From Candidatus Rokuibacteriota bacterium (GTDB lineage: Bacteria; Methylomirabilota; Methylomirabilia; Rokubacteriales; CSP1-6), in assembly GCA_003220615.1 (NCBI GenBank), contig QHTB01000161.1:1-64000 (forward strand): a stretch of 64,000 nucleotides of DNA, in the 5' to 3' direction. The notes under the pieces are model-generated. The model was not told the origin of the DNA. It saw only the letters and a list, made by a program, of their open reading frames with translations, and searched no databases. This document shows, in pieces, positions 13,780-18,990 of the stretch. The number at the start of each line of letters is the position of its first letter. The first letter of the stretch is position 1. Made by a program: the position numbers and the translations under genes.

Positions 13780-13785
13780 TCTAGC
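13780..13785. repeat. Left target-site duplication TCTAGC
   Basis: This 6-bp TCTAGC is repeated exactly at 14829-14834. It fits the NCTAGN target preference known for IS481-type elements. On the minus strand it supplies the TAG that ends the transposase reading frame. Confidence 0.95.
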
Positions 13786-14725
13786 TGTGAAGTCTCACCA
13801 GGTTGTCCGCAGAGACGACGACCCGGGTGATCGGGGCGTGGCCACCGAGGCTGGTGTGGCGCCGATGCCAATTGTAGTGATGCAACCATGCGGCGAGATC
13901 GAGCCGCCGCTCGCGAGAGTGAGGAAACCGGCGGGCATAGGCCCACTCGTGGAGGGCGGTCTTGATGAAGCGCTCGGCCTTGCCGTTCGTGCGCGGAGTG
14001 TACGGCCGCGTGAAGAGGTGGCGAATCCCGAGCCGCTGACAGGCCTGGCGAAAGCGCCGCGCTCGATAGCACGAGCCGTTATCCGTCATGACGGCCCGCA
14101 CGCGCACCCCGAGGCCGGCCAGGCAGCGCACCGTGCGGTGCAGAAAGCCGACGGCGGTGCCGCCCCGCTCATCCGGCAGGACATCGGCCGTGGCCCAGCG
14201 CGTGGCATCGTCGATGGCCACGTGCGTGAATTCCCAGCCGGCGCCGCGGACCGTGTCACGACGGTTCCCACTGATGCGATGGCCGGGGCGCACGATGCGG
14301 CCCAGCTTCTTGATGTCGAGATGCACCAGCGCGCCGCTGTCGCTGCGTTCATAGCGAATGACGGGGACGGGATCGATCAGCGGCAGGCGCGACCACCCGC
14401 AGCGGCCGACGATGCGCGCCACCGTCGCGCGGCTCACGCCGACTTCCGCCGCGATCTGGTGGCAGAAGCGCCGATGCCGGTGGCGCAGGACCTTGATGCG
14501 CAACGCTTGGGCCGGCGCGGTCGCCCGGGGCGAGTGCGTCGGTCGCGACGAGCGATCGCCCGCGCTGCCGACAGCGGCCATCCGAGCCACCCACTTGCGC
14601 ACCGTCTTTTCCGAGACCGCCAATGTCCGCGCGACCTGGCGCGCCGACTGTCCGAGCATCGTCACGCGGCGGACGGCGTCCTCTCGACCTCGCGGCGTCA
14701 ACCGGGCATTCTTGTGGATGTTCAT
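13781..14725 (-). CDS. IS481-family transposase
   Basis: A 314-residue DDE transposase. The N-terminal part (residues 5-60) holds a helix-turn-helix with SARQVARTLAVSEKTVRKW. A linker rich in Arg follows, then an rve-type catalytic core with the three acidic residues in LVHLDIKKLG, RAVMTDNGSCYR and NGKAERFIKTAL. The ATG at 14725 is preceded by GAGGAGG. The frame ends ...VRLHS followed by TAG. The last two bases of the Ser codon and the whole TAG lie in the target duplication rather than in the element, so the stop is acquired on insertion into a CTAG target. No frameshift or premature stop is seen. Confidence 0.95.
   Translation of the reverse strand: MNIHKNARLTPRGREDAVRRVTMLGQSARQVARTLAVSEKTVRKWVARMAAVGSAGDRSSRPTHSPRATAPAQALRIKVLRHRHRRFCHQIAAEVGVSRATVARIVGRCGWSRLPLIDPVPVIRYERSDSGALVHLDIKKLGRIVRPGHRISGNRRDTVRGAGWEFTHVAIDDATRWATADVLPDERGGTAVGFLHRTVRCLAGLGVRVRAVMTDNGSCYRARRFRQACQRLGIRHLFTRPYTPRTNGKAERFIKTALHEWAYARRFPHSRERRLDLAAWLHHYNWHRRHTSLGGHAPITRVVVSADNLVRLHS
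13786..13814. repeat. Left terminal inverted repeat of the IS481-family element
   Basis: It begins TGTGAAGTCTCACCAGGTTG and pairs with 14800-14828 in inverse orientation, with six mismatches in 29 bases. The transposase C-terminal codons lie within it. Confidence 0.93.
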
Positions 14726-14799
14726 CCGGGCCTCCTCATCGGGATTTCTGGTTGCTTGGCAGCCCCAGATTCCCTTGAGTCGGTCCGGATGGACAATCC

Positions 14800-14828
14800 C
14801 CCTGCAGACAACCTCTTGAGCCTTCACG
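14800..14828. repeat. Right terminal inverted repeat of the IS481-family element
   Basis: Read on the minus strand it begins CGTGAAGGCTCAAGAGGTTG, the partner of the left repeat. It lies upstream of the transposase start and probably overlaps its promoter region. Confidence 0.93.
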
Positions 14829-14834
14829 TCTAGC
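14829..14834. repeat. Right target-site duplication TCTAGC
   Basis: An exact copy of 13780-13785. The CTAG core was the original stop codon (TAG on the minus strand) of the response-regulator gene, which therefore remains intact after the insertion. Confidence 0.95.
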
Positions 14835-15258
14835 GGCGAACGACGCTGGCCACGGTTCGACACAGCTCCCAGGGATCGATAGGTTTCCTGAGATGAGCCT
14901 GGAACCCGGCCGACAGCGTCCGGTGCGGACCGTGCTCGTCGCCGTAGGCGGTGATGGCGATGGCCGGAACGTTTCCGCCGTCTTCCGCGCTTCGCGCACG
15001 AACCTGCTCGACCAACCAATAGCCGTCATTGGTCGGCATCGCGATGTCTGTCACGATCGCGTCCGGGGTGACCCGCTGGAGGATTCGCAACGCCTCGCGG
15101 GCCGACCCCACGGCGGTGGCGAGTGCTCCACAGTACTCGAGCACGGTCTTCAAGAGCGCGCGCGAATCCCGGTCGTCGTCCACGATGAGCACGTGGACAC
15201 CGATGAGCGCATCGGCCGGAAGCTGATCACGCCGGCCCACGACGTGTCCCCGCCCCAT
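14830..15258 (-). CDS. Single-domain response regulator (CheY-like receiver)
   Basis: A stand-alone receiver domain of 142 residues. The acidic pocket is in VLIVDDDRDS near residue 27, the phospho-acceptor Asp in AIVTDIAMPTNDG near residue 70, the conserved Thr in AIAITAYG, and the conserved Lys in HLRKPIDPW. It lacks an output domain, so it probably acts by protein contact or as a phosphate relay. The ATG at 15258 gives an N-terminal extension of about 20 residues. A GTG at the VHVLIVDDD strand is an alternative start. Its stop codon is the IS481 target site. No histidine kinase is nearby. It is a paralogue of the degenerate receiver just upstream. Confidence 0.88.
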   Translation of the reverse strand: MGRGHVVGRRDQLPADALIGVHVLIVDDDRDSRALLKTVLEYCGALATAVGSAREALRILQRVTPDAIVTDIAMPTNDGYWLVEQVRARSAEDGGNVPAIAITAYGDEHGPHRTLSAGFQAHLRKPIDPWELCRTVASVVRR

Positions 15259-15793: not shown

Positions 15794-17323
15794 CTACACC
15801 GGGTAGACACCGTTGCGCCGCGCCGGGAATTCGTGGGCTTTCGTCTCCGCGTACGCTAGACGCTTGATGAGTTCCGCCCGCAGGGCGTTGCCGGCCACGA
15901 TGTCGTCGACCAGCATCTCGGAGGCGAGCTTGTAGATGTCCACGTCTTCGGCGTACTCGTCGCGCTTCTGCTTCACGTACGCGGCGCGCTCGCCTTCTGG
16001 CAGCTCCATGATCTTGTTGTAGTACACCGCGTTCACGGCGGGTTCCGGGCCCATGATGGCGATCTGGCCCTGGGGCAGGCTGAGCGCGGCGTCGGGTTCG
16101 AAGGCGGGGCCGCACATCGCGTACAACCCGGCGCCGTAGCACTTGCGGACGACGACGGAGATCTTGGGCACCGTCGCCTGCGACGTGGCGAAGACCATCT
16201 TGGCGCCGTGACGGATGATGCCCTCGCGCTCGACCTTGGTGCCGACCATGAAGCCGGCGACGTCGGCGAGGTACACGAGCGGCACGTTGAACGCGTTGCA
16301 CAGCCAGATGAAGCGCGCCGCCTTGTCCGAGGAATCGACGAACAGCACCCCGCCCTTGACCTTCGGCTGGTTCGCGACGATGCCGATTGTCCGGCCCCCG
16401 ATCCGCGCGAAGCCGGTGATGATTTCCTGGGCGAAGAGCCGCTTCAGCTCGAACCACGAGCCGGCGTCGATCACCCGGTCGATCACTTCGTACATGTCGA
16501 ACCACTTCCGCTGGTCGTACGGCACGATCTCGTCGATCGCGCGCCCGGGCTTCGGGTCGGCCGGTTGCGCGCGGGCGGGGAGCTCGCGATACGACGACGG
16601 CATGTAGCTCAGGTACTGCTTGGCGATCTCGATGGCCTCCTCGTCGGAGCCGGCCAGGATGTCACCGCAGCCGGACACCGTGCAGTGCATGCGCGCACCG
16701 CCGAGATCCTCCAGCGTGGTCTTCTCGCCGATCGCCATCTCCACCATGCGCGGGCTGCCGACGTAGAGCGAGGCCTTGCCGTCGACCATGATGACGACGT
16801 CGGTGAGCGCAGGGAGATAGGCCGACCCGGCCGGTGACGGCCCGAAGAGAATGCAGACCTGCGGCACGACGCCCGAAAGCTGAACTTCGTTGTAGAAGAT
16901 CCGCCCCGCGTGGAACCGGCCGGGAAAGATCCGGATCTGCTCGGAGATCCGCCCCCCGGCGGCGTCCACCATATAAAGGAGGGGGATGTTCAGCCGGGCG
17001 GCCTTCTCCTGGATGCGAATGATCTTCTGCACCGTCTTCTCGCCCCACGAGCCGGCCTTGACCGTGTAGTCGTTGGCCATGATGCAGACGGGGCGGCCGC
17101 CCACGCGACCGACGCCGGTGACGACGCCGTCGGCCGGTGTGTCCGCCTCCTGGGACCGGGCGAACAGCCAGTCCTCCTCGAAATCACTGCCGGGATCGAG
17201 CAGGCGCTTGAGCCGCTCACGGACGAAGAGCTTGCCCTCGGCCTTCAGCTTGTCGCGATATTTGACGTGCCCCTGCTCGATGCGGGCCCGTTCCTGCTGG
17301 TAGCGCTCCTCGCCCGCGCTCAC
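15794..17323 (-). CDS. Acyl-CoA carboxylase carboxyltransferase (beta) subunit
   Basis: A 509-residue carboxyltransferase of the acetyl-/propionyl-CoA carboxylase beta family. The N-half carries DKLKAEGKLFVRERLKRLLDPG-type sequence, MANDYTVKAGSWGEKTVQK and MVDAAGGRISEQ. The C-half has GFARIGGRTIGIVANQP, YLADVAGFMVGTKVERE and an oxyanion segment YGAGLYAMCGPAFEPD. The start is set at GTG 17323 because it overlaps the sigma-factor stop in a GTGA junction. A GTG at 17353 would lengthen it by 10 residues. It is divergent in sequence from the carboxylase at 7442, so the two are not a recent duplication. No biotin subunit lies next to it. Confidence 0.88.
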   Translation of the reverse strand: MSAGEERYQQERARIEQGHVKYRDKLKAEGKLFVRERLKRLLDPGSDFEEDWLFARSQEADTPADGVVTGVGRVGGRPVCIMANDYTVKAGSWGEKTVQKIIRIQEKAARLNIPLLYMVDAAGGRISEQIRIFPGRFHAGRIFYNEVQLSGVVPQVCILFGPSPAGSAYLPALTDVVIMVDGKASLYVGSPRMVEMAIGEKTTLEDLGGARMHCTVSGCGDILAGSDEEAIEIAKQYLSYMPSSYRELPARAQPADPKPGRAIDEIVPYDQRKWFDMYEVIDRVIDAGSWFELKRLFAQEIITGFARIGGRTIGIVANQPKVKGGVLFVDSSDKAARFIWLCNAFNVPLVYLADVAGFMVGTKVEREGIIRHGAKMVFATSQATVPKISVVVRKCYGAGLYAMCGPAFEPDAALSLPQGQIAIMGPEPAVNAVYYNKIMELPEGERAAYVKQKRDEYAEDVDIYKLASEMLVDDIVAGNALRAELIKRLAYAETKAHEFPARRNGVYPV

Positions 17324-18369
17324 GGTCGGCGGGTCGGGTTGGCGTTGGCCCACACGACGATGATCAGGACACCGTCGGCGTGCTTGGGGCCACCGATGAC
17401 GGCGGGATTTCCCGACGCCGCCTGGATGCTGGTGTTCACCTCGGCGCGACCGTTACGCTCGAGTCGCACCCGCAACCTCACCGAGTTCCCGTCCACGCCT
17501 TCCGGCGTGACCTCGAGCTGGCGCTCCCCGGGCACCGGCCAGCGCTGCGTCGCGCCGACGGGCACTTCGGCCCGATACCGCTCGAGCGAGGTGTACTCCT
17601 GATAGCGGAAGAGCTGGCGCAGGCGCGGAAGGAACTGCGCGAGTCGATCGTCGACCTCCGGAGGCGCCGCGCGCGTGGCCAACGAGGGTGGGCCATCGGT
17701 GGCGAGGAGGACGCGACACCCGAACCGCACGACCTGCTGGGCGTGGGCGACGAGGGGCACGCCGAGGAGGCCGAGCGCGAGGACGACGATCAGGAGACGT
17801 CCGAGGATGTCGCGCAGACGCTTCCGCGCATTGTGCAGTCGGGACATGACCGTTCCCATCGGAATGTCGAGCACCTCAGCGATCTCGCGGTACGAGAGAC
17901 CTTCGAGATCGCTCAACATGATAATCGCGCGATGATGCTCCGGCAAAGCATCGAGGCCGCGCCGGATGCGCTCGCGCTGTTCGGCTCGCGACGCCGCGGC
18001 GTCGGGTCCTCCGCCCGGTTCCACCAGCACCCGATCCCAGTCTTCCTCGGGCACGGCCTCGGTTCCGAGCGCCCGGCCACGGGACGATCGCTGCCGCGCG
18101 CGATCGGTCGCCACGTTGATGACGATGCGGAACAACCACGTGTAGAACGCCGACTGGCCGCGGAACGAGGGGAGCGCCTGCCAGGCCCGGATGAACGCGT
18201 CCTGTGCGACGTCCCAGGCTTCCTCGCGGTCGCGCAGATAGTTGTAGGCGAGCCGCCAGACCCGCTCGCGATACTTCTCCACCAGCGGCTCGAAGGCAGC
18301 GACATCGCCGTTTCGGCATCGTTCAACCAGCGTCTGATCGTCAGTATCCACGGGGCGTTCGTTGGCCAC
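17320..18369 (-). CDS. ECF-type sigma factor fused to a signal-like segment and a C-terminal domain
   Basis: One continuous 349-residue frame. Residues 1-95 form a sigma-70 region 2 (ERVWRLAYNYLRDREEAWDV, FYTWLFRIVINVATD). Residues 133-189 form region 4 with a helix-turn-helix (LSYREIAEVLDIPMGTVMSRL). Immediately after comes a hydrophobic run at 191-206 ending VAHAQQ, which looks like a signal peptide or membrane anchor. Residues 211-349 form a beta-rich domain with no family I recognise. An internal ATG at residue 175 (17847) would give a free protein whose signal peptide n-region is the sigma region 4 tail. So this may be a membrane-tethered sigma factor or two nested products. It starts with GTG. 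The stop overlaps the carboxylase GTG. Confidence 0.8.
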   Translation of the reverse strand: MANERPVDTDDQTLVERCRNGDVAAFEPLVEKYRERVWRLAYNYLRDREEAWDVAQDAFIRAWQALPSFRGQSAFYTWLFRIVINVATDRARQRSSRGRALGTEAVPEEDWDRVLVEPGGGPDAAASRAEQRERIRRGLDALPEHHRAIIMLSDLEGLSYREIAEVLDIPMGTVMSRLHNARKRLRDILGRLLIVVLALGLLGVPLVAHAQQVVRFGCRVLLATDGPPSLATRAAPPEVDDRLAQFLPRLRQLFRYQEYTSLERYRAEVPVGATQRWPVPGERQLEVTPEGVDGNSVRLRVRLERNGRAEVNTSIQAASGNPAVIGGPKHADGVLIIVVWANANPTRRP

Positions 18370-18465
18370 CCCGCCGTCACATGTTGGACGTCGAGGTGAG
18401 CGGACCGATTCACTCGTGTCGGGCCAGCGGCCCTTTCTTCACCGGTGTGCAGCGTGGTGCAGGGT

Positions 18466-18990
18466 TCATCGACGCGAGCCACGCCGGCCCGGCGCTTGCC
18501 GACCACGCGCCGGGCGAGGCACCGGTGAGCCGGCCCGTCGAGGCGGCTGACGCGCGTCGTTCATCGTGAGGAGCGCGTCGATGCCCAGCACATAACTCTC
18601 CGGTCCGAAGCCCGAGATCTGCCCCCGGCTCACGGCCGCGATCACCGAATGCCGGCGGAATTCCTCGCGGCCGTGGATGTTGGAGAGGTGGACCTCGACG
18701 ACCGGGACCCGGATGGCCGCGACGGCATCGCGCAACGCAATCGAATAGTGCGTGAACGCGCCCGGGTTGAACACCACGCCGCCGTAGCCCTCGCGCTCGG
18801 CCCCCTGCAGCCACGTGACCAGTTGCCCTTCGAGGTTCGACTGGCGGCAATCGACGACGACGCCGCGCCGCTGACCATGCTGGCGCAGCGCTCGGTCGAC
18901 CTCGGGCAACGACACAGAGCCGTACACGGCGGGCTCACGCGTGCCGAGCAGGTTGAGGTTGGGGCCGTGCAACACCAGCAAGCGCTTCAT
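18466..18990 (-). CDS. aroQ: 3-dehydroquinate dehydratase, type II
   Basis: A shikimate-pathway enzyme (174 residues) dehydrating 3-dehydroquinate. The type II signature is complete: LLVLHGPNLNLLGTREP at the N-terminus, the active-site Tyr in YGSVSL, RQSNLEGQLV, NPGAFTHYSIALRDA and VEVHLSNIHGREEFR. The C-terminus carries about 25 extra Arg/Pro-rich residues beyond the usual end near GIDAL. The frame may simply have drifted past the ancestral stop. It lies 96 bases upstream of the sigma-factor start on the same strand, and that gap holds nothing recognisable. Confidence 0.95.
   Translation of the reverse strand: MKRLLVLHGPNLNLLGTREPAVYGSVSLPEVDRALRQHGQRRGVVVDCRQSNLEGQLVTWLQGAEREGYGGVVFNPGAFTHYSIALRDAVAAIRVPVVEVHLSNIHGREEFRRHSVIAAVSRGQISGFGPESYVLGIDALLTMNDARQPPRRAGSPVPRPARGRQAPGRRGSRR

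Follow-up and report, generated by a model that had tools for sequence, protein, structure and literature searches.

A single uninterrupted reading frame in the window (the whole stretch of 64,000 nucleotides that was analyzed) runs from the two domains of an ECF sigma factor through a hydrophobic segment resembling a signal peptide and on into a compact β domain. This fusion is real and is an old inherited state, not a frame error. Comparison with related genomes supports the view that it is the remnant of a three-gene cassette of sigma factor, anti-sigma factor and secreted domain, the middle gene of which appears to have been relocated and not lost. The conserved pattern at the junction is suggestive of export of the domain followed by its cleavage, with the sigma factor left anchored in the membrane on the leftover signal peptide. 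The model as a whole (a cassette remnant, a tethered and cut sigma factor, an unlinked inhibitor and two promoters) is, in our judgment, reasonably probable, and the support that sequence comparison lends it concerns the cassette ancestry, the relocation of the anti-sigma gene, the shared promoter class and the signal-peptidase pattern.

The Fused Gene and Its Parts

The following features of the window make up the fused gene:

17320..18369, minus strand: fused coding sequence (ECF sigma factor, signal-peptide-like segment and periplasmic-type β domain), 349 aa, GTG start
18085..18285, minus strand: sigma-70 region 2, residues 29-95 (Pfam Sigma70_r2, PF04542, 2e-19)
17815..17973, minus strand: sigma-70 region 4, residues 133-185 (Pfam Sigma70_r4_2, PF08281, 2e-17)
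17740..17814, minus strand: hydrophobic segment, residues 186-210, its probable origin being the signal peptide of the relatives' separate third gene
17323..17733, minus strand: C-terminal β domain, residues 213-349, no Pfam, NCBIfam or PDB match

Regions 2 and 4 are the only sigma regions present and both are intact, as is characteristic of ECF sigma factors (TIGR02937, 4e-35); the initial annotation had assigned residues 1-189 to a full region 2 plus region 4, and these profile matches bear it out. The hydrophobic stretch begins only about five residues past the region 4 helix. When the whole fused protein is scanned, hydrophobicity peaks at residues 188-210, in the very junction region where such a segment had been suspected, and the peak closes on AHA followed by QQ (residues 208-212); the same scan finds no second hydrophobic segment. 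In the AlphaFold2 model an unbroken helix extends from residue 171 to residue 210, such that the sigma-4 recognition helix runs on into the hydrophobic segment. A C-terminal membrane-spanning hydrophobic helix, a feature of the fused ECF sigma factors, is thereby predicted.

What follows the helix had been described as a β-rich domain of 139 residues. Its β-rich character stands, the AlphaFold2 model being confident here (pLDDT 87 when the domain is modeled alone), while its extent is to be corrected to some 137-139 residues, starting at about residue 211-213. A search with HMM profiles, as had been advised initially, gives no accepted Pfam or NCBIfam match for this part of the protein; a match to the Pfam secretin family (E 0.05) is weak and was not accepted. 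As for the fold, no PDB entry matches at E <= 0.001, with TM scores near 0.3, and a profile search of PDB sequences with the domain returned nothing convincing. With the stand-alone forms of the domain (see below) as query, one scan of genome contigs recovered eight loci, all within the candidate phylum Methylomirabilota/NC10, and nothing significant was found in the plasmids searched.

Conservation of the Fusion and of Its Neighborhood

The window comes from an uncultured bacterium of the candidate phylum Methylomirabilota, to judge from its relatives, which are NC10/Methylomirabilota MAGs, and the order is probably Rokubacteriales. The β domain is present in 53 of the 57 genomes of the family, the four without it being incomplete, and the sigma factor precedes it in frame wherever the contig allows. 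The fusion is likewise found in two neighboring families of the same order. The junction, which the initial annotation had noted to continue without a stop into the hydrophobic run, is open in essentially every family genome; stop codons that seem to lie inside some of the family matches are mostly normal gene ends. Because the same open fusion occurs in all 53 of the 57 genomes that hold the domain, a sequencing error is excluded. Sister families do carry separate genes, the very observation that had been named beforehand as the mark of two genes joined by a sequencing or assembly error, yet dozens of assemblies made independently show the same open fusion, the ancestral middle gene is absent from the locus, and that explanation is already refuted and retains next to no probability.

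Two neighbors flank the fused gene in the usual order aroQ – fused gene – carboxyltransferase:

18466..18990, minus strand: aroQ (type II dehydroquinase), conserved upstream neighbor
15794..17323, minus strand: acyl-CoA carboxylase carboxyltransferase, directly downstream neighbor, usually conserved

The likely GTG start of the carboxyltransferase overlaps the TGA stop of the fused gene (GTGA), and the two genes are in this sense coupled. The coupling to an acyl-CoA carboxylase that had been noted in the window is thus correct there and common elsewhere, but it is not universal; several genera have no carboxyltransferase at the fused locus. Farther along the window, at 13781-15019 on the minus strand and beside response-regulator-like genes, there lies an ORF that, as judged from its translation, resembles a transposase and contains a helix-turn-helix as well as DDE-like segments.

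Descent from a Three-Gene Cassette

Two families of the class, f8 and f9, have three separate genes, which encode the sigma factor, a ZAS-type anti-sigma factor with a single membrane helix, and the domain, equipped with a signal peptide of its own; two paralogous loci of family f1 have the same separate three-gene layout. This is the gene content and order of rpoE-rseA-rseB in E. coli, which encodes a sigma factor, a single-pass anti-sigma factor and a secreted periplasmic protein. Unlike that system, the domain has no Pfam match to MucB/RseB, either in the stand-alone proteins or in the fused form, and the order to which the window belongs has the sigma factor and the third protein in one chain, with an unlinked anti-sigma factor.

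One stand-alone protein has the signal peptide MKPLLLVLAAFLLLPVSLAYAQ, which is similar to the junction found in fused relatives, LGPLLVLLVALVALAAPLVVDAQ for example, and this likeness indicates that the fusion joined the C-terminus of the sigma factor to the signal peptide. In a tree of 65 sigma factors, the fused ones are monophyletic (100/100) and are nested in a group with the sigma factors of the cassettes (95/91), a position that makes the three-gene state the simpler ancestor. In the ancestor of the order, then, the third gene's signal peptide would have become continuous with the sigma C-terminus, while the anti-sigma gene would have taken up a different position, next to tol-pal. Two of the family's genomes (L078 and L079) possess the fused gene together with a paralogous, complete sigma/anti-sigma/domain cassette.

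An Unlinked Anti-Sigma Factor

The initial annotation had offered, as one of two readings, a tethered sigma factor with no separate anti-sigma factor. The lack of an anti-sigma was probably wrong, as the same genome carries, at another locus, an ortholog of the cassette anti-sigma gene under a promoter of the same class. That genome encodes 11 zf-HC2 proteins, nine of which adjoin a sigma factor of their own, and an orphan ZAS protein (L174:2062-2625, plus strand; G000, contig C117), whose gene is convergent with ybgF/pal, is the one that best matches the cassette anti-sigma. A clear ortholog of the orphan is found in about 50 of the 57 family genomes, always on a contig other than that of the fused gene; the seven genomes without a clear ortholog include some that are incomplete. 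In families f7-f9, it is the cassette's middle gene that matches the orphan best. The orphan's own surroundings are highly conserved: of 30 loci examined, all have ybgF of the tol-pal cluster adjoining it, and 28 have one and the same hydrolase on its opposite flank. In the anti-sigma tree, the orphans form a clade (97/96), the grouping of which with the cassette anti-sigmas is moderately supported (84/86).

Loss of the anti-sigma gene through the fusion was considered and rejected, since the orphan ZAS gene of the same genome is the cassette ortholog; these comparisons support relocation instead. The anti-sigma gene stands beside its sigma gene, as in RpoE-RseA-RseB, in the cassettes of the sister families and apart from it in this order. 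The unlinked protein is the likely cognate inhibitor of the fused sigma factor, which it would be expected to bind.

A Shared Class of ECF-Type Promoter

A promoter precedes the fused gene:

18384..18412, minus strand: ECF-type promoter of the fused gene, TGAAT-N17-CGTCCAA in the window, conserved in relatives

The pattern TGAAT-N17-CGTCTAA occurs in 42 of the 57 family genomes, 42 of its 44 matches being at the fused gene, and the reversed control pattern gives 0 matches. For the orphan anti-sigma gene, 29 of 30 loci have GAATA-N17/18-CGTCCAA within ~5 nt upstream of the start; the thirtieth locus begins at a contig end. As this promoter abuts the GTG start, the anti-sigma mRNA is predicted to be leaderless. 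Among the cassettes, the sigma gene of f9 is preceded by GAAT-N16-CGTCCAA; before those of f8 the strict motif was not found. The merged pattern GAAT-N17/18-CGTCYAA has 2-6 exact matches per genome in six genomes, and in one complete genome it matches just the fused gene and the anti-sigma gene.

Such a shared promoter class would tie the unlinked sigma and anti-sigma factors into one system. The GAAT-CGTC motif is assigned to the fused sigma factor by position and conservation, and the sigma factor is accordingly proposed to recognize it and, through GAAT-N17/18-CGTCYAA promoters, to activate its own gene and that of the anti-sigma factor. Any further regulon consists of single exact matches per genome, the sole recurring candidate being an exported DUF6600 protein in two species of one genus. 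Here the motif lies upstream of the gene in L230 and L224, at about position 1530 of the matched strand, and the protein is a possible regulon member in both species of this genus, which is that of the window. Another match, upstream of clpX in one genome (L211, position 1500-1600), sits where the preceding coding region ends and may be due to chance.

A Predicted Signal-Peptidase Site at the Junction

The statistics of the junction come from an alignment of 52 distinct fused genes that was built without regard to the motif. Position 208 (-3) admits small or aliphatic residues only, position 209 (-2) is free (3.4 bits), position 210 (-1) is Ala in 48/51, and position 211 (+1) is Gln in 42/52. 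Signal peptidase I substrates carry a hydrophobic stretch of 15-20 residues followed by small residues at positions -3 and -1; the junction has this pattern, and cleavage is thus predicted. A mere membrane anchor would be unlikely to keep the -3/-1 pattern, which makes cutting by signal peptidase I likely. The genome itself encodes two signal peptidases I, together with an RseP-like M50 protease and Prc.

In the proposed mechanism, the signal peptide would insert the fused sigma factor in the cytoplasmic membrane, with the sigma regions on the cytoplasmic side and the domain on the outer side. A cut after Ala210 would probably then be made by signal peptidase I, freeing the domain, and the cut sigma factor would stay anchored by the leftover helix until released by an RseP-type protease. 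A role in envelope stress would be in keeping with such a scheme. Of the tethered sigma factor lacking an anti-sigma that had been envisaged at the outset, the tether is favored by the conserved fusion and the inherited signal peptide, and it is the lack of an anti-sigma that has to be given up.

An Internal Promoter and a Candidate Internal Start

Within the sigma coding region there are two further features:

17918..17946, minus strand: internal sigma70-type promoter, TTGCCG-N17-TATCAT, kept by rare codons
17845..17847, minus strand: Met175, candidate internal start, with codon bias nearby

The fused genes, and these only, show a deep synonymous-codon dip at codons 146-156, for which the sequence TTGCCG-N17-TATCAT accounts. 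The form TTG(C/T)C-N17-TATCAT is kept, by rare codons, in 44 of the 52 distinct fused genes, as against 7% that are promoter-like in synonymous resampling, and it is the only promoter-like site in 1.4 kb, where 0.1 would be expected. Met175, which had been suggested as an internal start for a secreted protein, lies ~70 nt downstream. One may thus envisage a nested gene, in which the internal promoter and Met175 yield a secreted domain with the sigma tail as the n-region of its signal peptide, the full-length fused sigma factor being made from the ECF promoter, hence two products from one frame. Codon usage around the start is in keeping with this. Gly172 is GGA in 23/52 genes versus ~8% elsewhere, placing an SD-like GGA 6 nt before ATG175, and there are rare Arg codons at 177.

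Several observations pull the other way, however. The promoter tracks the downstream carboxylase, being present in 42/44 genes with it and 2/8 without (about three independent changes); GGR codons persist where the promoter is absent; and Met175 is found in the unfused cassette sigmas too. SD strength is no greater than in other sigma factors and was rejected, as not specific, as proof of an internal start. Because the internal promoter goes with the presence of the carboxylase, it may well serve the acyl-CoA carboxylase gene downstream. The same transcript would carry Met175, and a nested, separately translated domain is possible on that account as well. We therefore treat the nested gene as a serious contender that is nonetheless the less probable account; were the internal start to make most of the domain, a membrane sigma factor held by its recognition helix may be a by-product. 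A more elaborate notion, which we think rather unlikely, is that the sigma factor has its own export signal as a switch, the full-length protein being processed in the manner of a secreted one and release of the sigma factor from the leftover signal peptide reporting the state of secretion or of the envelope, with the nested promoter and internal start giving a second dose of the domain.

Relation to Known Membrane-Bound Regulators

The tethered and cut sigma factor that we favor may also be set against a membrane one-component regulator that is never cut, of ToxR/CadC topology, with the sigma factor under the control of the periplasmic domain. A predicted N-inside orientation, one helix and a C-terminal periplasmic domain would suit such a regulator well. 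It is nevertheless improbable, as the conserved signal-peptidase pattern argues for cutting, the recognition helix merges into the hydrophobic helix with no linker by which to reach DNA and RNA polymerase, and a separate anti-sigma factor is retained.

There is less still to recommend a C-terminal part that is itself an anti-sigma domain, and we regard this reading as very improbable. The sigma-TM-periplasmic layout does resemble that of IutY and ECF52/53 (PMC8999054), and indeed ECF48/52/53/36 and the Pseudomonas putida protein IutY (ECF243) are membrane-tethered fused ECF sigma factors with an in-chain anti-sigma domain, and for IutY release through proteolysis by Prc and RseP has been shown (PMC8999054). 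The likeness lies in the combination of ECF sigma factor and membrane tether (here a predicted one) in one polypeptide. In the present protein, by contrast, Pfam and NCBIfam searches found neither a ZAS nor a FecR-like domain in the stretch of about five residues that separates region 4 from the helix, the helix appears to be a signal peptide that includes a cut site, and the gene for the ancestral cassette's ZAS protein lies at another locus. Tethered ECF sigma factors are already known, and what sets the present case apart is fusion through a signal peptide together with an unlinked anti-sigma factor: a sigma/anti-sigma/sensor operon seemingly rewired, with its outer genes fused via the signal peptide, its inhibitor moved and the same promoter class kept.

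A precedent for signal peptidase in the control of ECF sigma factors is provided by SigV-RsiV and SigP-RsiP, in which it is the site-1 protease acting on the anti-sigma factor (PMC8844934, PMC9044953). Here, too, a signal-peptidase site, in this case a predicted one, stands in the control chain, to be followed, as we propose, by a site-2 protease, but the site is on the sigma factor itself. If processing is as predicted, signal peptidase would act on the sigma factor instead of the anti-sigma factor, an arrangement of which we found no report in the literature searched. RseP clears leftover signal peptides in E. coli (PMC8144685), and by analogy the fused sigma factor would be detached from its anchor in this way.
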